Shown here one piece after another: positions 45,335 through 56,899 of a DNA stretch of 64,000 bases; the first letter of the stretch is position 1; each line of letters opens with the position of its first letter. The translations under genes were made by a program, and so were the position numbers. Where the stretch lies: positions 186,001 through 250,000 of the forward strand of contig NZ_JTDB02000006.1 of NCBI RefSeq assembly GCF_000785435.2, given 5' to 3'. The DNA comes from Paraburkholderia sacchari. GTDB taxonomy: Bacteria > Pseudomonadota > Gammaproteobacteria > Burkholderiales > Burkholderiaceae. The notes under the pieces are model-generated. The model worked only from the letters and a program-made list of their open reading frames with translations. It ran no database searches and was not told the origin of the DNA.

Positions 45335-45748
45335 CTAAGATTCAAAAAGGCTGCTCCGTCCGTCTGAAGATGTTCCAGAAGACGAGGGAGCAGCCGAGTT
45401 TGAGAAATGCTTCGTGAATGTCGGCCCAACGTTCGAAGCGAATGCGAAGACGACGGAAGTTGTGAAGCCACGCATGGGTACGCTCGACAACCCAGCGGAA
45501 TTTGTCTTCCGCCAGTCGCGCGACCGTCTCCAGCAGGTTGAACCCGAACCAAATCCCAATTTTTTCGAGACGCCGCACCAGCGGATAACGTTCTTGAGTA
45601 CGAACAGGATTCCGTTCAGTGCAGCTCGGTTCGAAACCGGCAACCGGCCTGGATACTTCTCGCGCCGCGGTTTTGGCGTCGGCAGCAATGGCTCGATCAG
45701 TGCCCACAGTTCGTCATCAACGGTCGGCGCGCCCATCCTTGGCTCCAT
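45335..45748 (-). mobile_element. Internally deleted IS5-family (IS427-like) transposase remnant
   Basis: The minus strand starts MGAPTVDDELWALIEPLLPT with SNRAALNGILFVLK (N-terminal DUF4096-type domain of IS427-like OrfA). It then jumps, with a frame change, to DKFRWVVERTHAWLHNFRRL and ERWADIHEAFLKLG (C-terminal end of OrfB). About 400 bases holding the catalytic core are gone. Such a nucleus could only be moved by a transposase in trans. It lies about 55 bases before the FNR-type box of the decarboxylase operon. Confidence 0.8.
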
Positions 45749-45801
45749 GCGCGCTGACCTTCAGCTATGAAACCAGGGTATCGACACGTCTACTGTTGGA
45801 G

Positions 45802-45842
45802 TTGATCCAGGTCAATCCGCGCGTTCCTTGCGGTGCTTGAAT
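45802..45842 (+). promoter_or_regulatory. FNR/Anr-type promoter of the ornithine decarboxylase operon
   Basis: TTGATCCAGGTCAA at 45802-45815 fits TTGAT-N4-ATCAA with one mismatch. Exactly 21 bases later TTGAAT (45837-45842) fits a -10 element, the spacing of class II FNR activation. Transcription would start near 45849, just before the AGGAGG of the gene at 45868. The same box-N21-hexamer layout occurs twice at 53.4 kb. Confidence 0.7.
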
Positions 45843-45867
45843 CAACGTGCAAACAGGAGGAGCGACC

Positions 45868-48231
45868 ATGATTCCCCGTTCCGTCAAGGCGCCGACGATT
45901 CCGATTCCGTTCCACAAGTTGCTGAAGGTGGTGGCAATCGTTGACCGCGGTGATCCCGATACCAAAGAACTGCTCGACTGGATTGCCGCAGAAAACATAA
46001 GCGTTGAGGTCACCGACAACGCCGCGCGAGATTTCGATGAAGACGCAGACGTTGGCGCTTATATCGTACGAGTCGACGGAGAACACCTTGAGCAGGCGCG
46101 TAGCCTCGCGTTTGGCGTGCGCTCGATCGGTTTTCATATCCCGCTCTGGGCGTTGGCCAACACCCATCGCATCACCGACCTCGTAGTGGCGGGCGGGCTC
46201 GGCGAAGTCGACGGCTATATCTACCTTGGCCAGCAGACCCCCGCCTTCTACGCGAAACAGGTGGCTGCAAGTCTTGTGAAGTACGGCATGTCCCTGCTTC
46301 CCCCTTTCTTTGGAGGGCTAGTCGCCTACGACGCAGAAGCCAATATCGCGTTCGACTGTCCCGGACATCAGGGCGGACAGTTCTATCGGAAATCACCGGC
46401 GGGACAGCTCTTCTTCAAGCACTTCGGTGAAAGCATCTTCCGCAATGATCTTTGCAACGCGGACGTCGATCTCGGCGATCTGCTGATCCACGAAGGACCG
46501 GCGGCGGATGCCGAGCGTCACGCCGCTGAGGTATTTGGTGCGGACCAGACCTATTTCGTGCTTAACGGTACCAGTACGTCGAACAAGATCGTGACAGGTG
46601 CCGTGTTGCGACGCGGCGACCTGGTGCTGTTCGACCGTAACAACCACAAGTCCGTACATCAGGGCGCGCTGGTGCAGGCCGGTGCCATTCCCATTTTCCT
46701 GCCAACTGCACGCAATCCTTTCGGCATGATCGGCGCGGTCGACTGGGACGCATGGGACGAAGACTGGCTGCGCGAGCAGATCCGGGTAAACCCGCTCGTG
46801 AAGGATCCCGCGCGCAGCAGCGCAGACCGGCCGTTTCGGCTCGCATGCATCCAGCTCGATACCTATGACGGCACCATCTACAACGTGCGCAAGGTGCTGG
46901 AGAAAATAGGACACCTGTGCGAATACGTGCTATGGGACGAGGCATGGATCGGATACAACGCGTTCCACCCGCTGTTCGAAGACCACAGTCCGATGCGTCT
47001 GAAGCAATTGGCGCCCGATATGCCGGGACTGTTTTCGACGCAATCGGTGCACAAGCAGGGCGCCGGCTTTTCACAGGCATCACAGATTCACAAACGCGAT
47101 GAACACATCCGCGGCCAGAAACGCTTCATCGAACACAGGCGGTTTAACGAATCGTTCCTGATTCATGCGAGCACTTCGCCTTTCTATCCGCTCTTTGCCT
47201 CGCTCGATGTAAACGCGAAGATCCATGAAGGCAAGGCAGGCGAGATGCTGTGGGACAGTTGCATCGAACTGGGTATTGAGGCGCGCAAGAAGTTGCGCGA
47301 ATTCGTGCACCACTACGCGGCCACGGGGCAGTGCACAGAAGAACAGTGGTTTTTCGATCCCTTCGTGCCCGACGTCGTGACGCTGCGTGATTCGAGATTC
47401 ATGAAGGACGTCGAGAACATGGCCTGGGAGTCGTTGCCGACAGACGTCATCAAGCGCGAGCAGCAATGCTGGGCATTCGATCCCGATGCGGCATGGCACG
47501 GCTATTCGGGCTACGCGAAAGGTTACGCGATGGTGGACCCGAACAAGCTCACGCTGCTGACGCCCGGGATCGACAGAAAGACGGGCGGCTATCTGAGTTT
47601 CGGCGTCCCGGCAACCGTCGTTGCCAACTATTTGCGCGAGGAGGGCGTTGTTCCAGAGAAGTGCGACCTGAACAGCATTCTCTTTCTCATGACACCCGCC
47701 GAGGATGAAAGCAAGCTCAACACGCTTATCGCCCGGCTCGTCAGGTTCAAGAACCTCTGGGATCGCGACGCCGCGCTGGAGGAAGTGCTGCCGACATTGT
47801 ACGCCGCGCATAGCGCCCGATACGCAGGGTACACGCTGCGTCAGGTGTGCAACGAGATGCACAACTTCTACCGGGAATCCAACGTAAAGGAATTGCAGCG
47901 GCTCTGCTTCCGTGCGTCGAGCTTCCCCGAACTCGCAATGTCGCCTGAGGCCGCTTACGAGTCGCTTGTTGCAAACGACGTTGACTACGTGCCGCTCGAT
48001 TCCGTTTCGGGTCGTATCTCCGCGACGCTTGCGCTGATCTATCCACCAGGAATTGGTGTCGTCTTGCCGGGTGAGCGTTGGGACGAACGCGCGCAACCCA
48101 TGCTCGACTATTTCATGGCATTTCAGGAATCGTTCAACCGCTTCCCAGGCTTTAACTACGAAGTGCAGGGCGTGTTTCAGGAACGTGAAGACGGGCGCAT
48201 CAGGTTCTATACGTACGTAGTGCGCGAATAG
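45868..48231 (+). CDS. Ornithine/lysine/arginine decarboxylase family, probable ornithine decarboxylase
   Basis: A 787-residue fold-I PLP decarboxylase of the large bacterial SpeF/AdiA type. N-terminal wing domain (1-130); the core has DCPGHQGGQFYRKSPAGQLF, NGTSTSNKIVTGAVLRRGD, DEAWIGYNAFHP and the PLP lysine Lys396 in STQSVHKQGAGFSQ; a C-terminal domain follows. The start is ATG 45868 with AGGAGG seven bases upstream. It consumes a cytoplasmic proton per ornithine decarboxylated, giving putrescine. The next gene is a PotE-type ornithine/putrescine antiporter, which supports ornithine as substrate. An FNR-type box precedes it. Confidence 0.9.
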   Translation: MIPRSVKAPTIPIPFHKLLKVVAIVDRGDPDTKELLDWIAAENISVEVTDNAARDFDEDADVGAYIVRVDGEHLEQARSLAFGVRSIGFHIPLWALANTHRITDLVVAGGLGEVDGYIYLGQQTPAFYAKQVAASLVKYGMSLLPPFFGGLVAYDAEANIAFDCPGHQGGQFYRKSPAGQLFFKHFGESIFRNDLCNADVDLGDLLIHEGPAADAERHAAEVFGADQTYFVLNGTSTSNKIVTGAVLRRGDLVLFDRNNHKSVHQGALVQAGAIPIFLPTARNPFGMIGAVDWDAWDEDWLREQIRVNPLVKDPARSSADRPFRLACIQLDTYDGTIYNVRKVLEKIGHLCEYVLWDEAWIGYNAFHPLFEDHSPMRLKQLAPDMPGLFSTQSVHKQGAGFSQASQIHKRDEHIRGQKRFIEHRRFNESFLIHASTSPFYPLFASLDVNAKIHEGKAGEMLWDSCIELGIEARKKLREFVHHYAATGQCTEEQWFFDPFVPDVVTLRDSRFMKDVENMAWESLPTDVIKREQQCWAFDPDAAWHGYSGYAKGYAMVDPNKLTLLTPGIDRKTGGYLSFGVPATVVANYLREEGVVPEKCDLNSILFLMTPAEDESKLNTLIARLVRFKNLWDRDAALEEVLPTLYAAHSARYAGYTLRQVCNEMHNFYRESNVKELQRLCFRASSFPELAMSPEAAYESLVANDVDYVPLDSVSGRISATLALIYPPGIGVVLPGERWDERAQPMLDYFMAFQESFNRFPGFNYEVQGVFQEREDGRIRFYTYVVRE

Positions 48232-48264
48232 AGGTAACAACCGATCAGGACGAGGAGAATCACC

Positions 48265-50511
48265 ATGTCTGATCAACCCAAAAAGATGAACGTCATCCAA
48301 CTGACCTTCATCGTCACGGTGAACATGATGGGCTCGGGCATCATCATGTTACCGACCAACATGGCAAAGGTGGGCGCGATTTCCCTGCTGTCGTGGCTGG
48401 TGACGGCTATCGGGTCGCTGGCTATTGCTTATGGCTTTGCCGAAGCGGGGTTGCTGAATCAGCGCGCAGGAGGAATGGCGGCCTATGCGGAGGATGGCTA
48501 TGGCAAGGACGGCTACTTCCAGGTGTTCTTCCTGTACTTCCTGTCGATCGCGATCGCGAATGTGGCGGTCGCAAGTTCAGCGCTCGGCTATCTCGCGGCG
48601 TTCTTTCCTGTGCTCACGTCATCGCCCGTCGCTACCTGCATCGGCGTGATCGCTCTGCTGTGGCTCACTACCGTCGCGAACTTCGGCGGACCAAAGGTCA
48701 CGGGGCGCATTGGAGCGGTGACCGTATGGGGCGTCATCCTGCCCGTCGGATTCATCTCGATCGCGGGCTGGTTCTGGTTCCACGGCGGAACATTTGCCGC
48801 AGCCTGGAATCCCAAGGGGGTCAGCCTGCTCGAGGGCATGGGTTCGAGCATTTCACTGACCCTGTGGGCGTTCCTCGGCATGGAGTCGGCAGTCCAGAAC
48901 TCATCGGCCGTCGAGAATCCCAAGCGTGATGTCCCGCTCGCGTGCATGTTCGGCACACTGGGCGCGGCGGTGATCTATATCCTGTCCACGACAGCCATTC
49001 AGGGCATTGTGCCCAATGCGGACCTCGCCGCATCGACGGGTCCATTCGGCCTGGCCTTTGCGCGCATGTTCAACCCTGCAGTCGGTTCGATCGTCATGGC
49101 GCTTGCGGCGCTGGCATGCGTGGGATCGTTGCTGGGATGGCAGTTCACATTAGCCCAGACCGCCAAGGATGCGGCGGACAGCAGAATGTTCCCAAGCATT
49201 TTCGGCAAGGCGAACAGCATGGGCGCACCTATCGCAGGCATGGTCATCATGGGCGTTGTCCAGTCGCTGATGGCGCTGTCGACCATCTCGCCCAACCTCA
49301 GTGAACAGTTCGCCGCACTTGTCAATCTGGCCGTCGTCACCAATGTGCTGCCGTACATCATTTCACTATCGGCGCTGTTCGTGATGATGCGCAACGCCGG
49401 TACGACGCCCGCGAAATACCGAGTCACTGCGATCGTAACGGTCATCGCGCTCGCGTACTCGGTCTATGCGATCTATGCGTCCGGCAAGGACGCCGTGCTA
49501 GGCGGCATGCTGGTCATGGCGATCGGCTATGTGATCTATGGATTCATGGCGTTCCGCTTCACTTCGGTGACTTCCTCTGGACGCGCGGGCGCGGCCTCTG
49601 CGGCGGCTGCACTGGCAATCGCTTTTCTGCTGCTGGCAGGCCTGCTGCCACGGCCAGCCCACGCGGATGAGCCTGCTTCAGCGGGAACGCTGGCGAGAGT
49701 CAAACAGTCCGGCACGATCAATCTGGGCTACGTCAACGACGCGCAGCCGTTTTCGTACAAGGACCAGACGGGCCGGATCACGGGGTACACCGTCGCGCTG
49801 TGCCAGAAGATCGCCGACGAGATCAAGACCGAAAGTGGTCTCGGCACGCTGAAAGTCAGCTGGGTAGCCGTCACGCCCGAAGCCCGCAAGCGCGCAGTGC
49901 AGGAGCACCGGATCGACCTCTTGTGCGGTGACGCCGATACGCTCGCGGGGAGGGCCGGCATGTCGTTCTCCATCCCCGTGTATCCGGGCGGCATCGGCGC
50001 GGTCGTGCGCTCCGATGCGCCGGCCGGGCTGAAGGAAGTGTTGTCCGGAGCGAGTCCATCGCATCCCACCTGGCGTGCGGTTCCGGCGCAGCTGATTTCG
50101 CGGCAGACCATTTCGGTTATCGATGGTTCGCCCGCACAACACTGGCTCGGCGGCAGGCTTGAGCAGTTCCAGATTACGGCCTCCGTCATTCCCGTCACCG
50201 ATGTGCAGTCAGGCGTCCGCAGGGTTCTGGACCGGCAGTCGAATGTGTTTTTCGGCGAACGTTCGCTGCTGCTCGCAGTCGCCAACAGTAGCCCGGCGTC
50301 CGGCGACCTGACGGTGCTCGATCGTCACTTTACCTATCTGCCCGTGGCCATCGGAATGGCGCGAGGAGACGACGATCTGCGGCTGCTGGTCGATCGCACA
50401 TTGAGCCGGCTTTTCGCTTCTTCGGAGTTTCCAGCGTTGTACACGAGATGGTTCGGTGCGCCTGATGCGGATACGCGCAATTTCTTCCGTCTCAGTGCGC
50501 TTCCCGAGTGA
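48265..50511 (+). CDS. PotE-type putrescine/ornithine antiporter fused to a periplasmic solute-binding domain
   Basis: A 748-residue fusion. Residues 1-435 are an APC antiporter closely resembling PotE (NMMGSGIIMLPTNMAKVG, TVANFGGPKVTGRI, TLWAFLGMESAVQNSSAVEN, GSLLGWQFTLAQTAKDAADS), with twelve helices. Residues 440-467 form a signal-peptide-like helix ending PRPAHA, then DE. Residues 475-740 are a family-3 extracellular solute-binding domain (GTINLGYVNDAQPFSYKD, GYTVALCQKIADEI, RIDLLCGDADT). No stop separates them. AGGAG precedes ATG 48265, 34 bases after the decarboxylase. The binding domain may feed ornithine to the exchanger, or be clipped off and act alone. Confidence 0.88.
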   Translation: MSDQPKKMNVIQLTFIVTVNMMGSGIIMLPTNMAKVGAISLLSWLVTAIGSLAIAYGFAEAGLLNQRAGGMAAYAEDGYGKDGYFQVFFLYFLSIAIANVAVASSALGYLAAFFPVLTSSPVATCIGVIALLWLTTVANFGGPKVTGRIGAVTVWGVILPVGFISIAGWFWFHGGTFAAAWNPKGVSLLEGMGSSISLTLWAFLGMESAVQNSSAVENPKRDVPLACMFGTLGAAVIYILSTTAIQGIVPNADLAASTGPFGLAFARMFNPAVGSIVMALAALACVGSLLGWQFTLAQTAKDAADSRMFPSIFGKANSMGAPIAGMVIMGVVQSLMALSTISPNLSEQFAALVNLAVVTNVLPYIISLSALFVMMRNAGTTPAKYRVTAIVTVIALAYSVYAIYASGKDAVLGGMLVMAIGYVIYGFMAFRFTSVTSSGRAGAASAAAALAIAFLLLAGLLPRPAHADEPASAGTLARVKQSGTINLGYVNDAQPFSYKDQTGRITGYTVALCQKIADEIKTESGLGTLKVSWVAVTPEARKRAVQEHRIDLLCGDADTLAGRAGMSFSIPVYPGGIGAVVRSDAPAGLKEVLSGASPSHPTWRAVPAQLISRQTISVIDGSPAQHWLGGRLEQFQITASVIPVTDVQSGVRRVLDRQSNVFFGERSLLLAVANSSPASGDLTVLDRHFTYLPVAIGMARGDDDLRLLVDRTLSRLFASSEFPALYTRWFGAPDADTRNFFRLSALPE

Positions 50512-50658
50512 GATCAGCGGACAAAACAAGGTGGCCCCCAGTGAGGCAGCCTGTTTGCCTGGATTCGCCAGCTATCTGCAAGGCAGGGGCGAGGCATCCA
50601 GGTATGTGTGTGATCGCGCCGCAGTCCGGGGGATTGCGGCCAAGACCAGGGGACTTCG

Positions 50659-50904
50659 ATGACAGCTCACACCGAACCCATCCTTCGCCGCCTCGGCATG
50701 AAGGCACTTCTCGTGCATCATGAGATCGAATCGCGTTCCGCAAGCGGACGCGCCACGCAAGCGTTAATTGCCGAACTCGAGCAGCGGTTCGTCAACGTCA
50801 TTGTGGCGACTTCGGCCGACGATGCCGTTGCGGTCATCGCGGCGGATCCACTCATCCAGTGTCTGTTACTGAATTGGGAACTCGGCGACGATGAAACTCA
50901 TTAG
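50659..50904 (+). pseudogene. Arginine/lysine decarboxylase N-terminal wing remnant
   Basis: Eighty-one codons. From residue 14 on (MKALLVHHEIESRSASGRAT, then ADDAVAVIAADPLIQCLLLN and WELGD) the sequence matches the receiver-like N-terminal domain of large Orn/Lys/Arg decarboxylases of the AdiA type. It stops abruptly after DDETH, and no PLP domain follows. It lies directly behind the decarboxylase/antiporter pair and is probably what remains of a second decarboxylase gene. A free-standing wing domain acting as an oligomer partner cannot be excluded. Confidence 0.7.
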
Positions 50905-51270
50905 CAGGCGCAGCGTGTGTCCTTACGCTTCGCGCAGCGCTTGCATCAAGAGTCCTGAATTTCACCAGCAATGCTTCTTCAAAGACGTGCTCGATGTAAT
51001 CGATCGTGGCACTGATGCGCACAGCACGAAAGGCGGTAAGCCTCGAGGTCGTTCAACTGTTGCTCGGCCGAAGCGAGCATGGAACGCAGAGCCCGTTAGC
51101 TGCCTCGGAAACGCTCGTGCCTCACCGTCAGAACGGGCCGACGACCAGTCCGGCACGATCCGGGCGTGAAGTAATAGGCGATAAGGGATTGCTGCCGGAA
51201 ATGGACTCCGCATAGGGCACTTCGTGCATCGCGCGCCACGTGAATGCGACTCGTCCTCGGTATTGGGGCA
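50905..51270. other. Intergenic stretch, nothing recognised
   Basis: About 365 bases after the decarboxylase remnant and before the end of the TPM gene. Only short meaningless frames are seen. Confidence 0.45.
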
Positions 51271-51768
51271 TTACATGACGACCGGCGAACTCGGCAACTC
51301 GTCGCGTGGAGGGCTGTGAACCGGAAAATGCTTCTTCAGCAATTCGGTAACCTGCTCGATGCCTCGCAAGACGCCAGACTGGTAAGCGCCCCGTCGAAAC
51401 GCTGCTTCCATCGCATGACAGATTGACTCCCACTCGCTGCTACCGACCTTCGCGTGAATACCCCGGTCAGCAATGATTTCCACGTCCCTGTCAGCAAGGA
51501 GCAAATAGATCAGCACGCCATTGTTGTATTCCGTATCCCAGACGCGAAGCTGGGAGAAGACATCAATTGCACGTTCTCGGGCAGACAACCCTTTGAAAAG
51601 CGCAGTGCTGTGCAATGCCCCCTCGACCGCGAACCTGACCTGGCCAATGTGCGCCTGATGACTTTCCTGCACCGCCTTCTCGATGGCATGAAGCGAGCGC
51701 CGAGGAAAAGCCGCGTTGACCCGCCAACGGGTCATAAACAGGTGTCTGAAAAATCGCTTCAGGTCCAT
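51271..51768 (-). CDS. TPM-domain protein, soluble partner of YgcG
   Basis: A 165-residue protein with a TPM (YgcG/TLP18.3/Psb32) fold: QVRFAVEGALHSTALFKGLS, RAIDVFSQLRVWDTEYNNGV and LIYLLLADRDVEIIADRGIH. No signal peptide, and the N-terminus is basic (MDLKRFFRHLFMTRWRVNAA). The ATG at 51768 follows the ygcG stop by two bases, with AGGTGG upstream. Third gene of the lemA operon. Such paired TPM proteins often accompany LemA; the biochemical role is not established. Confidence 0.85.
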   Translation of the reverse strand: MDLKRFFRHLFMTRWRVNAAFPRRSLHAIEKAVQESHQAHIGQVRFAVEGALHSTALFKGLSARERAIDVFSQLRVWDTEYNNGVLIYLLLADRDVEIIADRGIHAKVGSSEWESICHAMEAAFRRGAYQSGVLRGIEQVTELLKKHFPVHSPPRDELPSSPVVM

Positions 51769-51770
51769 GA

Positions 51771-52628
51771 TTACCACCTGCCCGATGCACCGCCACCGCC
51801 AAATCCGCCACCACCGCCCCGGAAGATGTCGCGATTTGAACCGCCGCCGAATCTGCCGGACCCGCCGCCAATGAACCGCCCGCCGACATAGGCGCCCATA
51901 CCGCTCCCCAGAAGCGTGAACATCAATGCAATCGCACCCGCAGTGACGGCCACGAGAACGGCACCGGAAAAGAACCAGGCCAGCAAGCCAATCAGACCTC
52001 CTGTGACCAAAGCGCCGGGCAGCCTCCCAAATACCGCTCGCAGTATGCCGCCGGCGATGACTGTCACCATCAAAAGTACCGGCAGCAATCCTCTGGAGCC
52101 GCCAGCACTGCCCTGCCTCTCTGGTGGTGCAGGCAACGGCTCGCCGTTGACAACATGCATGATGCTGTCAATTCCGGACGAGATGCCACCGTAGAAATCT
52201 CCCTGCCTGAATCTCGGCACAATGGTTTCGTCGATGATGCGGTTGCTTGTCGCGTCGGTGAGCGCCCCCTCGAGGCCGTATCCAACCTCGATGCGCAGTG
52301 TTCGGTCGTTTTTCGCGATAATCAGCAGAACGCCATCGTCGACATTCTTGCGACCGAGCTTCCACTGCTCGACGACGCGTATCGAATACTGTTCGATAGT
52401 CTCCGGCTGGGTCGTCGGAACGATGAGAACAGAAATCTGCGCACCCTTTTGGGCTTCGAAATCGTTCAGCGTCTGTTCGAGGGTCAGTCTTTGCTCGTCC
52501 GTGAGCGTGCGTGTCTCGTCTGTCACCCGTGATGTAAGGGAAGGCACAGCGACATCGGCGCGAACCTGAGTGCCGACAAAAGTGAGAACTGTGACGATGA
52601 GTGCAATCGCCAAGCGCACCAGGTTCAA
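51771..52628 (-). CDS. YgcG-type TPM-domain membrane protein
   Basis: A 285-residue exported protein. Signal peptide (LVRLAIALIVTVLTFVGTQVRA), TPM domain (30-170: VTDETRTLTDEQRLTLEQTL, ISVLIVPTTQPETIEQYSIR, LRIEVGYGLEGALTD), two to three membrane helices (185-245) and a Gly/Arg-rich tail typical of YgcG. The frame starts at TTG 52628, overlapping the lemA stop; GTG 52619 is an alternative start. TPM domains are linked to membrane-protein repair and phosphatase-like activity. It forms an operon with lemA and a second TPM gene. Confidence 0.9.
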   Translation of the reverse strand: MNLVRLAIALIVTVLTFVGTQVRADVAVPSLTSRVTDETRTLTDEQRLTLEQTLNDFEAQKGAQISVLIVPTTQPETIEQYSIRVVEQWKLGRKNVDDGVLLIIAKNDRTLRIEVGYGLEGALTDATSNRIIDETIVPRFRQGDFYGGISSGIDSIMHVVNGEPLPAPPERQGSAGGSRGLLPVLLMVTVIAGGILRAVFGRLPGALVTGGLIGLLAWFFSGAVLVAVTAGAIALMFTLLGSGMGAYVGGRFIGGGSGRFGGGSNRDIFRGGGGGFGGGGASGRW

Positions 52629-53251
52629 TTGGACACCCCACCCGCTGATGCCGGCGTCGCCCCGAAATCCACGCGCGGAGGTTTGGAAATTTCCGCTTCG
52701 TTACTGACCGAGAAGTTGGGTTTTTCCTGAAAACCGAAGACCTTCGCCGTCAGGTTGTCCGGGAACGACCGTACCGTTGTGTTGTACTCCTGCACCGACC
52801 GGATGTAGCGATTCCTTGCGACGGCAATCCGGTTTTCCGTCCCTTCGAGCTGTGCCTGCAAATCGCGGAAGTTCGCGTCTGATTTCAGTTGCGGGTAATT
52901 CTCGGACACCACCAGCAACCGGGACAACGACGACGTTAGCTGCCGCTGCGCTGCCTCGAACCTGGCGAAGGCCTGTGGGTCCGCAAGGAGCTCCGGCGTC
53001 GCCTGAATCGAACCCACCTGTGCGCGAGCTTCGGTTACGCGCGTGAGCACGTCTTTTTCCTGGTTCGCATACCCCTTCACCGTATTGACGAGGTTCGGAA
53101 CCAGGTCTGCACGACGTTGATACTGATTCAGCACCTCCGACCAGCTTGCCTTGACCTGCTCGTCCTCGGTCTGGATGGCGTTGTAGCCGCATCCAGATAA
53201 TCCAAAAACGATTGCCAGCGTAAGCAAACCCAAAAGCGTGCGTGTCAACAT
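52625..53251 (-). CDS. LemA-family lipoprotein
   Basis: A 208-residue LemA protein. The signal peptide ends in lipobox LSGC. The hallmark DLVPNLVNTVKGYANQEKDV with VSENYPQLKSDANFRDLQAQ LEGTENRIAVARNRY follows, forming an all-helical domain, and a short tail. The ATG at 53251 is supported by the signal peptide; a longer frame to 53323 lacks one. First gene of the lemA-ygcG-TPM operon, with an FNR-type box 130 bases upstream. LemA proteins are linked to envelope stress and two-component signalling; the mechanism is unclear. Confidence 0.92.
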   Translation of the reverse strand: MLTRTLLGLLTLAIVFGLSGCGYNAIQTEDEQVKASWSEVLNQYQRRADLVPNLVNTVKGYANQEKDVLTRVTEARAQVGSIQATPELLADPQAFARFEAAQRQLTSSLSRLLVVSENYPQLKSDANFRDLQAQLEGTENRIAVARNRYIRSVQEYNTTVRSFPDNLTAKVFGFQEKPNFSVSNEAEISKPPRVDFGATPASAGGVSN

Positions 53252-53347
53252 TTTTTCAATCCGCAAGAAGCGTAAACCTGGTTCTGGCGAGCTCGAGACA
53301 AAAAGGCGGAGACAAGCTGCCAATCGCTTACGCGGTCAGATACTTGC

Positions 53348-53388
53348 ACGCTACGCCGCCAGTTTCCGCCCCCTTTGATGCAGGTCAA
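53348..53388 (-). promoter_or_regulatory. FNR/Anr-type promoter facing lemA
   Basis: Read leftward: TTGACCTGCATCAA (53388-53375), 21 bases, TAGCGT (53353-53348). The box fits TTGAT-N4-ATCAA with one mismatch. Its spacing and hexamer are identical to those of the promoter facing the other way. The predicted start near 53341 leaves a 90-base leader to lemA. Confidence 0.72.
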
Positions 53389-53429
53389 TCTTAATTGACC
53401 GACAACTGTCCCCTATCGGCGTAAAACCA

Positions 53430-53470
53430 TTGATGTACATCAATATCATTTGCCTCCCTGCCGGTAGCGT
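53430..53470 (+). promoter_or_regulatory. Perfect FNR/Anr box and promoter facing the DUF2933/copper-ATPase operon
   Basis: TTGATGTACATCAA at 53430-53443 is a perfect TTGAT-N4-ATCAA box inside a 16-base palindrome. After exactly 21 bases comes TAGCGT (53465-53470) as the -10 element. Predicted start near 53477, about 89 bases before the ATG at 53566, mirroring the lemA side. Class II activation by an FNR/Anr/Dnr-type regulator is the simplest reading. Confidence 0.8.
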
Positions 53471-53565: not shown

Positions 53566-53826
53566 ATGAACGAAGTTCCACACGGCGCACGCCCTTTCTG
53601 GAAATCGCGAGCGGCGATTGCCATGACTGTCTTTGGTCTAATCGCGCTCTTTCTGATGTTTTCCGAACATCGTACTCACATCCTCGGAGCGCTCCCGTAT
53701 CTGCTGCTGCTCTCGTGCCCACTGATGCATCTGTTTATGCACCACGGGCACGGTCATGGGCATCGTTCGCGACCGGACGGTGTCGACCGGGCAAATCCAG
53801 GAGACGACCATGATTCACCCAGATAG
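53566..53826 (+). CDS. DUF2933-type small membrane protein
   Basis: An 86-residue protein with one or two membrane helices (AIAMTVFGLIALFLMFSEHR and LGALPYLLLLSCPLMHLFMH), followed by the His-rich end HHGHGHGHRSRPDG and an acidic tail. This is the DUF2933 plan often found in metal-resistance or low-oxygen operons. The His cluster may bind metal. GGAGAG precedes ATG 53566. Its end overlaps the next gene by 17 bases, indicating translational coupling. Confidence 0.85.
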   Translation: MNEVPHGARPFWKSRAAIAMTVFGLIALFLMFSEHRTHILGALPYLLLLSCPLMHLFMHHGHGHGHRSRPDGVDRANPGDDHDSPR

Positions 53827-54466
53827 TGGGTACGGCTTGTGGGGACTGGTCGTTGCCAATTCTCTAGTATTCGTCATCTTTGCCTTCAGCTTTTTCAAGC
53901 CTTCGACGAAGCGGGACTGGCGGACCTTCGGCGGATTCTCAGCATTCATCGTCGCCCTGTTTGCTGAGATGTACGGCTTCCCGCTCACGATTTACCTGCT
54001 CTCCGGGTGGCTTCAGGCCCGGTTTCCTCAAACCGACCTGTTTGCGCACGATTCAGGCCACCTCTGGTGGATGATGACAGGCCGGCACGGCAACCCGCAT
54101 TTTGCCCTCCCGCATCTGCTGAGCCTCGTCTTCATCTTCGGCGGCTTTTACCTGCTGGCGAAGGCCTGGCACGTGCTATACGAGGCACAGCGCGGTGGCA
54201 AGCTGGCGACCTCCGGACCCTATGCCAGGATTCGGCACCCGCAATACGCGGCCTTTGTCGTCATCATGTTCGGGTTTCTGATTCAGTGGCCGACGCTCGT
54301 GACGCTCGTGATGTTCCCGGTGTTGGTCCTCATGTATGTGAAGCTCGCCATCCAGGAGGAGCATGAAGCCGAAGACCAGTTCGGCCAGGCCTGGCGTGAC
54401 TACGCCGTGCGCACACCGCGCTTCATCCCCAAATTATCGTGGGATGATGCAGCACATGTGCATTAA
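53810..54466 (+). CDS. Isoprenylcysteine carboxyl methyltransferase (ICMT)-family membrane protein
   Basis: A 218-residue protein with five to six membrane helices. The C-terminal ICMT/PEMT-like motif reads KLATSGPYARIRHPQYAAFV, then EEHEAEDQFGQAWRDYAVRT, the SAM-binding region of this family. CAGGAG seven bases before ATG 53810 fixes the start. It overlaps the DUF2933 gene and precedes the copper ATPase by 21 bases. Bacterial members near metal pumps have unknown substrates; methylation of a lipid or small molecule is possible. Confidence 0.88.
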   Translation: MIHPDSGYGLWGLVVANSLVFVIFAFSFFKPSTKRDWRTFGGFSAFIVALFAEMYGFPLTIYLLSGWLQARFPQTDLFAHDSGHLWWMMTGRHGNPHFALPHLLSLVFIFGGFYLLAKAWHVLYEAQRGGKLATSGPYARIRHPQYAAFVVIMFGFLIQWPTLVTLVMFPVLVLMYVKLAIQEEHEAEDQFGQAWRDYAVRTPRFIPKLSWDDAAHVH

Positions 54467-54487: not shown

Positions 54488-56899
54488 ATGTCTGACTCGC
54501 ATACCCACGTCCACGGCACTGATGAGCCCTCGGATGAACACCTGTTCGGCAAGCACGACGTATCCGAAGCCGTCGACCCGGTATGCGGGATGAAGGTCAC
54601 GACGGACTCGGCAAATCACGTCAGCCATCGCGACCAGACTTACTACTTCTGCAGCCGCAAGTGCCTGGATGCCTTTCGGGCTGAACCGGACAGATACGCA
54701 CGTCCGGCTGCGGCAAAGGTCATTCTCAACCGCGTGCCGGCTTCCGGTGTCATCTACACGTGCCCGATGCATCCGCAAATACGTGCCTCGGCCCCAGGCA
54801 CATGTCCTATCTGCGGCATGGCCCTGGAGCCGGTCACGCCGCCGGCGTCGGAAGAACGAAACATCGAACTGGAATCGATGACGAGACGTTTCTGGGCGAG
54901 TCTCGTGCTGTCGATTCCGCTGCTGCTCATGACGATGGGCAGAATGGTATTGCCCTTTGATATCGACGCGGAACTCGACAATCTTTTCAGCGCGTGGCCC
55001 TTGCCGCACTGGATGCAGGCGTCATGGGGCCAGTGCGTTCAGGCCTTGCTTGCCACCCCGGTGGTGTTATGGGCCGGCTGGCCGTTTCTGCAACGCGGCT
55101 GGAAGTCGTTCATGACGTGGCAGTTGAACATGTTCAGCCTCATCGGACTGGGCGTCGCTGCTGCCTACCTGTTCAGCGTACTCGCACTGTTCTTCCCCGA
55201 CGCTTTACCTCAAGCGTTCAGGAGTGGAAACGAACTGCCGCTGTATTTCGAGGCAGCCGCAGTAATCGTGACCCTTGTGCTGCTTGGGCAGGTCCTCGAA
55301 CTTCGCGCGCGCTCGCGCACGTCGAGTGCCATCCGCGACCTGCTGCAGCTTGCGCCGCACACGGCTGTGCGCGTCCGCCCCGACGGCACGGAAGAGATTG
55401 TGCGGCTCGAAGACGTCACCGTGGGCGACACCCTGCGCGTCAAGCCGGGTTCGAAGATACCGGTTGACGGCGTGGTGGTTGACGGCCGGTCCAGCGTCGA
55501 CGAGTCAATGGTTACCGGTGAACCGATTCCTGCGGAGAAGGTCGCGGGCAGCAAGGTGACCGGCGCAACTGTCAACCAGACGGGAACGTTCCTGATGCGC
55601 GCAGAGAAGGTTGGCTCCGACACGCTGCTCGCGCGAATCGTGCAGATGGTGGCGGAGGCTGGGCGCTCGCGTGCGCCTATCCAGAAACTCGCCGACCAGG
55701 TCTCGGGGTGGTTCGTGCTCGTGGTCATTGGTCTTGCCGCAGTCTCCTTCATCGCGTGGTCACTGGCCGGTCCCGCGCCCGCGCTGGCAAACGCATTGGT
55801 CGTCGCCATCAGTGTGCTTATCATCGCGTGTCCGTGTGCGCTCGGCCTTGCCACTCCCGTTTCCGTCATCGTCGGGGTTGGACGTGGCGCTCGCGAAGGC
55901 GTGCTCATCAAGGACGCGGAAGCCCTTGAGTTGATGGAGAAGGTGGACACCGTCGTAGTTGACAAGACCGGAACCCTTACGGAAGGCAAACCGCGCGTAC
56001 AGACGGTCGTTGCGCTGAATGACTCGTCCAGATCCCAGGTGCTGGGTTACGCCGCAAGTCTCGAAGGTGCGAGCGAGCACCCCCTCGCGCAGGCGATCAT
56101 CGAGCATGCGAAGGGAGCTGGAACACACACGAGTCGCGTAGATGCTTTCGACTCGGTTCCCGGTAAAGGCGTGACTGGAAAAATCGAAGGCCGCACGATT
56201 TCGCTTGGCAATGCGCGCTTGATGGATGAGATGAAAATCGACTGTTCGTCGGTTGCAGATAGTACGGACCAGCTGCGCGAGGCTGGTCAGACGGTGATGT
56301 ACATCGCAATAGACAGCGAACTCGCCGGCTATATCGGGGTGGCGGACCCCGTGAAAGGGACGACACCCGATGCAGTGCGCCTGCTGAAAGCGTCCGGCGT
56401 CCGGATTGTGATGCTTACCGGCGACAACCCCGTCACCGCGAACGCCGTCGCAAGGGTGCTCGCGCTCGATGGCGTCAAGGCCGGCGTGCTGCCCGAAGAC
56501 AAGTACAAGCATGTGCAGGAGCTTCAGTCGCAGGGGCATATCGTTGCCATGGCGGGAGACGGTGTGAACGACGCGCCTGCGCTTGCGCAGGCAAATGTCG
56601 GCATCGCGATGGGGACCGGAACGGACGTGGCCATGAACAGCGCCCGCGTCGTTCTCGTCAAGGGAGACCTGCGCGGCATCGCACGCGCCCGCGCGTTGAG
56701 CGTCGCCACGATGAAGAACATTCGCCAGAACCTGTTCTTCGCATTTGCATACAACGCGGTGGGGATTCCTGTGGCGGCTGGCGTGCTCTATCCGTGGCTC
56801 GGTCTTGTGCTCAGCCCGATTATCGCCAGTGCTGCAATGGCGTTGAGCTCGGTTTCTGTCATCGGTAACGCGTTGCGACTACGGACCGCTCCGATGTAA
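54488..56899 (+). CDS. Copper-type P1B ATPase with YHS and heavy-metal-binding domains
   Basis: An 803-residue P-type ATPase. N-terminal His-rich leader, a YHS domain ([10 protein letters not shown]...[12 protein letters not shown], residues 30-70) and a zinc-ribbon-like metal-binding domain ([20 protein letters not shown], 90-115) replace the usual HMA domains. Then eight membrane helices, with CPC at 448-450, TGE in [10 protein letters not shown], phosphorylation site DKTGT (Asp492), SEHPLA and [12 protein letters not shown]. The CPC motif and the NxxYN/MxxSS-type ends ([15 protein letters not shown]) indicate Cu(I) or Ag(I) export. Last gene of the FNR-box operon. Could equally supply copper to oxidase assembly. 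Confidence 0.92.

Follow-up and report, generated by a model that had tools for sequence, protein, structure and literature searches.

Class II FNR promoters carry a box centred near -41.5, approximately 21–22 bases ahead of the -10 element. The nirB promoter of Escherichia coli, which we take to belong to this class, its box being centred at -41.5, and which is under further control by other regulators, reads TTGATTTACATCAA-N21-TAAGGT in strain K-12. In Pseudomonas, the Anr regulon (TTGATNNNNATCAA) also combines such a box with arginine catabolism genes as targets, arcD being among the predicted ones, and otherwise has a target set different from the one described here; the covered parts of PMC6588701 give no spacing rule, and the word ‘spacing’ does not occur in that text. 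A betaproteobacterial Fnr site, described with Fnr1 and Fnr3 of Herbaspirillum seropedicae, lies at -42 of the fnr1 promoter and is read as class II, with a target that differs from those considered here in the parts of PMC5934665 covered. Here, we analyze a stretch of 64,000 nucleotides from Paraburkholderia sacchari (the window; C5:186001-250000 of a 7.3-Mb genome in 21 contigs), in which three promoters share one FNR-type layout: one ahead of an ornithine decarboxylase gene, one facing lemA and one facing the operon of a probable copper-type ATPase. The sequence makes a strong case for class II FNR/Anr control, and we consider it highly probable that all three sites are sigma-70 promoters activated by FNR/Anr in the class II manner, with outputs that are satellites of a larger regulon.

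At all three sites the 14-base box, the 21-base gap and the hexamer lie exactly where the original prediction had placed them (Table 1). One box is a perfect TTGAT-N4-ATCAA, and the other two have one arm as TTGAC/GTCAA. The E. coli nirB promoter has the same arrangement of a 14-base box, exactly 21 bases and a TAnnnT hexamer (TAAGGT), differing in its target genes, and with this shared N21 layout the architecture seen here corresponds to that of a known class II FNR promoter. The window contains three exact TTGAYN4RTCAA boxes where 0.18 would be expected (a count of 3 is reached in none of 100 shuffles), and the box followed by N21 and TnnnnT occurs four times against 0.04 expected (0 of 100 reach 4). 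Relaxing the box to TTGAN6TCAA and allowing one mismatch gives 24 matches, compared with 14.5 expected (2 of 100 shuffles reach 24), a mild enrichment which indicates that the excess is mainly a matter of exact boxes. The fourth match to the full pattern, missing from the original prediction, is the 45802 box in reverse, with TACCCT at 45780-45775 (-). This reading (45775-45815, -) faces a transposase remnant, and its hexamer is the same in P. caribensis, in which the similarity to the window stops just past it. If the box centre is placed at -41.5 by the class II rule, the leaders would be approximately 89 bases for lemA, 88 for the DUF2933 gene and 18 for the decarboxylase. The near-equal leaders of about 90 bases remarked on earlier for the divergent pair stand as lengths under that assumption, but no meaning is supported for them: the distance from box to gene differs among relatives, and the near-equality is therefore probably chance.

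Table 1 Promoter elements and genes at the three FNR-type sites, in positions of the window
Feature	Position	Strand	Evidence or remark
FNR/Anr box TTGATCCAGGTCAA, decarboxylase promoter	45802..45815	+	Box also in P. atlantica L044, strain UYCP14C L051 and P. caribensis L171
-10-like TTGAAT at N21	45837..45842	+	TTTAAT in L044 and L051; TTGAAT in L171
FNR/Anr box TTGACCTGCATCAA, facing lemA	53375..53388	-	Exact box with N21-TAnnnT in 20/30 LemA loci, own included
-10-like TAGCGT at N21, lemA side	53348..53353	-	
Perfect FNR/Anr box TTGATGTACATCAA, facing ATPase operon	53430..53443	+	Exact N21-TAnnnT on both sides in 10/30 LemA loci, own included
-10-like TAGCGT at N21, ATPase side	53465..53470	+	
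IS4/5-type transposase open reading frame (DUF4096)	45335-45748	-	Abuts decarboxylase promoter
Ornithine decarboxylase	45868..48231	+	Pfam OKR_DC_1; NCBIfam PRK13578, 925 bits (above cut-off of 794)
Putrescine-ornithine antiporter (PotE type), C-terminal SBP_bac_3	48265..50511	+	Pfam; NCBIfam PRK10655, 653 bits (above cut-off of 409)
TPM-domain protein 2	51271..51777	-	Pfam TPM_phosphatase
TPM-domain protein 1	51771..52628	-	Pfam TPM_phosphatase
LemA-family protein, LSGC lipobox-like signal (by eye)	52625..53251	-	Pfam LemA, 203 bits
DUF2933 small protein	53566..53826	+	Pfam, 76.6 bits
ICMT/PEMT-like methyltransferase	53756..54466	+	Pfam
P1B-type ATPase with YHS and HMBD domains	54488..56899	+	Pfam; CPC motif (ACPCALG)

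The scan of the genome with a box-plus-spacing model, proposed earlier as a check, came out in favor of the 21-base gap. The genome holds 44 boxes compared with 8 for the reversed pattern, and when all 44 are read in both orientations (88 readings) TAnnnT stands at spacing 21 in 15 readings from 13 boxes, at 22 in two, at 8–20 in none and at each spacing from 23 to 39 in 0 to 3. The rate of TAnnnT at random window positions is 0.28%. Hexamers matching TATAAT in at least four of six bases are found at N21 in 19 of the readings. With this preference seen across all 88 readings, the N21 rule rests on the genome as a whole rather than on just the three sites. The bases after the box are also biased, with T at +1 in 45 readings, G at +3 in 48 and TCG directly following in 18, and may extend the site on one side.

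Across a genus sample of 141 genomes, drawn from a larger group and including the genome itself, box-N21-TAnnnT has 844 matches in 98 genomes, compared with 24 matches in 20 genomes for N20, 184 in 78 for N22 and 14 in all for the reversed N21 pattern. The 43 genomes without an N21 match point to a regulon that is partly accessory. In a phylum sample of 200 genomes, scanned with a stricter box (TTGAT/ATCAA instead of the TTGAY/RTCAA used for the genus), matches are found in 68 genomes at N21 and in 92 at N22; N21 is hence unsupported as a phylum-wide rule, and the marked bias towards 21 would seem to be particular to the Paraburkholderia lineage. The N21 enrichment in genome and genus, the nirB layout and the two FNR/Anr homologues described below support the FNR-type class II architecture of the original prediction.

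Its proposal of one regulon is likewise supported, in that boxes are kept in some relatives, although not in all: exact N21 sites are found at 20 of the 30 LemA loci examined and at 9 of the 30 for the ATPase, and the decarboxylase box at 2 of 48 loci and in P. caribensis. LemA has 34 matches in 32 of the 141 genomes, of which 30 loci were read, and two more of these have the site with a one-mismatch box. When an exact box lies within 350 bases, it is followed by N21-TAnnnT in 20 of 23 loci, and the site is kept at many orthologous lemA promoters. In the 22 promoters with a site the spacer identity averages 36% and that of the box arms 98%, hexamer conservation being unjudgeable in this set because the hexamer served to select it. 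For the ATPase, 30 loci of the best-scoring genomes were compared with 1.5-kb flanks, and two have the site with a one-mismatch box in addition to the nine exact cases. Ten plasmid LemA loci were also opened: N21 is present in three (Burkholderia stagnalis, Caballeronia and P. phytofirmans) and N22 in two from Cupriavidus. The N22 site of P. fluorescens lies 540 bases up, and at the remaining four loci nothing of the kind faces LemA. In P. atlantica (L044:4681, -), an N21 FNR site faces a diverged LemA-like protein with 32% identity. A literature search on LemA with FNR/Anr, and on LemA/TPM with DUF2933 and a P-type ATPase, gave no instance of FNR control of lemA in the covered parts of the matches listed, and PMC11742914 yielded no hit for box terms.

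The ATPase scores 582 bits against the copper model TIGR01511 (cut-off 397), and 398 bits against the cadmium model TIGR01512, also above the cut-off (313.5), whereas its 648 bits against the CopA equivalog fall short of 1316. It is probably of the copper type. Of the metal export originally proposed, the P1B ATPase stands, with the copper cut-off passed and a higher score for copper than for cadmium; the direction of transport is presumed.

The putrescine exchange proposed for the decarboxylase promoter is supported by the decarboxylase and the antiporter, both of which pass NCBIfam cut-offs for these functions (Table 1). The decarboxylase scores 908 bits against the SpeF model TIGR04301, below the cut-off of 1310; its closest solved relative is 1ord and its closest homologues are in Paraburkholderia, at 95.7% in P. 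caribensis. The antiporter is slightly below the cut-off of TIGR04299 (548 against 560 bits). It forms a single 748-amino-acid chain with SBP_bac_3, and behind the decarboxylase of relatives tblastn covers both parts in one or two segments, save at contig ends. A small open reading frame at 50659-50904 (+) resembles the N-terminal wing domain alone of Orn/Lys/Arg decarboxylases, and a relative of it lies behind the antiporter in L046-L049, farther away in L050 and in part in L084.

The decarboxylase box is found in P. atlantica (L044) and Paraburkholderia sp. UYCP14C (L051), both with N21-TTTAAT, and in the P. caribensis promoter with N21-TTGAAT. An origin of this box in the adjacent insertion sequence was considered and rejected, given that the similarity to P. 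caribensis begins at 45741 and spans the box, and that the box is kept in these three relatives. One copy of the transposase stretch was found in the genome, and no further similarity to it was found within 3 kb upstream in P. caribensis. Arginine deiminase genes lie within approximately 10 kb of the decarboxylase in 44 of the 48 loci, a label that rests on Pfam ADI for four proteins (two from the 48 loci) and OTCace_N for one more. A separate N21 site belongs to the deiminase gene itself in L044, L051 and P. caribensis. The genome studied here has its deiminase gene at C5:332 kb, following that of an amino acid permease, which is preceded by a box at C5:330357 with N21-CATCAT. A chain from arginine to ornithine with a gain of ATP, and then from ornithine to putrescine with exchange, is likely. 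Ornithine/arginine decarboxylases BCAM1111 and BCAM1112 of B. cenocepacia H111 are up in micro-oxia according to the covered part of PMC3759415, and could be orthologues of the decarboxylase of the window.

The sites could be real FNR sites without the three operons forming one functional unit, each operon being an adjacent accessory module with its own standard promoter. This is compatible with the class II explanation of the promoters, and we regard the question as evenly poised. The lemA promoter is kept where the ATPase is unlinked or on another contig (for example, in G051 and G050), and also in G014 and G027, which have no ATPase match at E 1e-100; the decarboxylase for its part usually keeps company with arginine deiminase genes, as described above. 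LemA-TPM occurs on plasmids of several genera (L173-L181), often near metal genes, and in annotated cases near genes for DUF2933, ICMT, a P-type ATPase, polyphosphate kinase 2 or a cytochrome D1-domain protein. A functional link is favored by the ten LemA loci (own included) in which both sides of the divergent region carry exact N21 sites, given that in eight of them, again with the own locus, the ATPase gene is the divergent neighbor on the same contig; the other two are those of G014 and G027. Genomes with LemA also have far more N21 promoters than those without, with medians of 14.5 (n = 32) and 2 (n = 109), uncorrected for relatedness.

FixK and Dnr proteins recognise near-identical boxes, and the sites could be read by a Crp/Fnr regulator of this kind, which has no oxygen sensing of its own, the signal being a two-component relay or nitric oxide. 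We consider this unlikely in view of the regulators encoded. A PF00325 scan finds two FNR/Anr proteins, both with CX2CX5C and an LETVSR helix, and both would carry a 4Fe-4S cluster. With PF13545, 150 of 195 candidates were scored, giving 17 matches of which the 8 above the cut-off were read. The only two with an E-x-x-S-R helix are the carriers of CX2CX5C, four further strong Crp/Fnr proteins have other helices and no such cysteines, and the remaining two look GntR-type by eye; a diverged Crp/Fnr member could have been missed among the nine weaker matches and the other 45 candidates. One FNR gene adjoins a reading frame that looks, by eye, like a LuxR-type response regulator, which would suit a two-component relay, and the covered part of PMC6127331 gives a homologue of BCAM0049 in B. 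dolosa as a FixK protein controlled by FixLJ. The other FNR gene adjoins a reading frame resembling, by eye, a universal stress protein. In B. cenocepacia H111, uspA lies upstream of anr2, as given in the portion of PMC9104464 covered.

The FNR gene with the LuxR-like neighbor lies on contig C4 within a 66-kb island that holds 17 of the 44 boxes (C4:25875 to 91207; L018-L021). Twenty box-adjacent island genes were scanned, and they include four universal stress proteins, acetate kinase, a polyhydroxybutyrate (PHB) synthase, a chaperonin, a zinc alcohol dehydrogenase and a P-type ATPase with a hemerythrin domain. As far as the scanned genes go, the island resembles the lxa (low-oxygen-activated) locus of B. 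cenocepacia (BCAM0275-BCAM0323), which has many universal stress proteins, a zinc alcohol dehydrogenase and a suspected Anr/FNR regulator in the covered part of PMC6127331. The three promoters of the window are on a contig other than that of the island. Box-adjacent genes scanned elsewhere encode glutamate dehydrogenase, a 4Fe-4S protein, an amino acid permease, a DUF2252 protein, an MscS channel and a CBS protein. The correspondence of the spacing to the known class II layout, the lxa-like island and arginine deiminase as the usual neighbor of the decarboxylase go beyond the original prediction.

The idea that palindromes of a GC-rich window line up by chance, for which only the mild enrichment of the looser box would speak, is ruled out for practical purposes by the shuffles, by the spacing rule in genome and genus and by the many orthologous promoters that keep the pattern.

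Several observations weigh against class II FNR/Anr control. The hexamers resemble TATAAT weakly, with three of six bases for TAGCGT and four of six for TTGAAT. In the genome, 31 of the 44 boxes lack TAnnnT at N21 in either reading, so that many boxes are not obviously class II. No N21-TAnnnT site was found in the scanned stretch of 8 of the 30 LemA loci, even with one box mismatch allowed, nor on the same terms in the 1.5-kb flank of 19 of the 30 ATPase loci, a flank that is too short at some of them (for example, G106, G011 and G047, where the LemA loci do have the site). At 46 of the 48 decarboxylase loci of the genome collection no exact box lies within 500 bases. Finally, copies within the genus are not independent, given that promoters are common by descent and the counts are uncorrected for relatedness.

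Under the class II explanation, a fall in oxygen would lead an FNR/Anr dimer with a 4Fe-4S cluster to bind the 14-base box. The bound protein would contact RNA polymerase and open the promoter as at E. coli nirB, a contact suggested by the exact 21-base distance between the box and a poor -10 element. The first output would be the ornithine decarboxylase and its putrescine-ornithine antiporter, a pair that would consume protons, carry out electrogenic exchange and normally continue the arginine deiminase pathway. The second would be the LemA-TPM-TPM envelope cassette, and the third the DUF2933-methyltransferase-P1B ATPase operon, which may serve metal handling when Cu(I) prevails. All three would be satellites of a larger FNR/Anr regulon centered on the lxa-like island on the other contig. 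A single low-oxygen gene programme very probably takes in putrescine exchange, the LemA cassette and the copper-type pump operon. The architecture itself is known, and the presence of LemA/TPM and a P1B ATPase operon in such a regulon would be the less expected part.

If so, LemA/TPM genes would be assigned to oxygen limitation, a step backed by about twenty genomes, and the same switch would take in metal handling as well as putrescine exchange in bacteria usually deemed aerobes. The strict 21-base preference offers a cheap predictor of low-oxygen promoters in Paraburkholderia. More tentatively, and with some doubt, LemA-TPM-TPM and the DUF2933-methyltransferase-copper ATPase operon could form a mobile, FNR/Anr-driven low-oxygen module for the envelope and for metal handling on islands and plasmids of Burkholderiales, working together with the deiminase-decarboxylase-putrescine chain. 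Were this true, LemA and TPM proteins would gain a condition and partners with which to seek their function.

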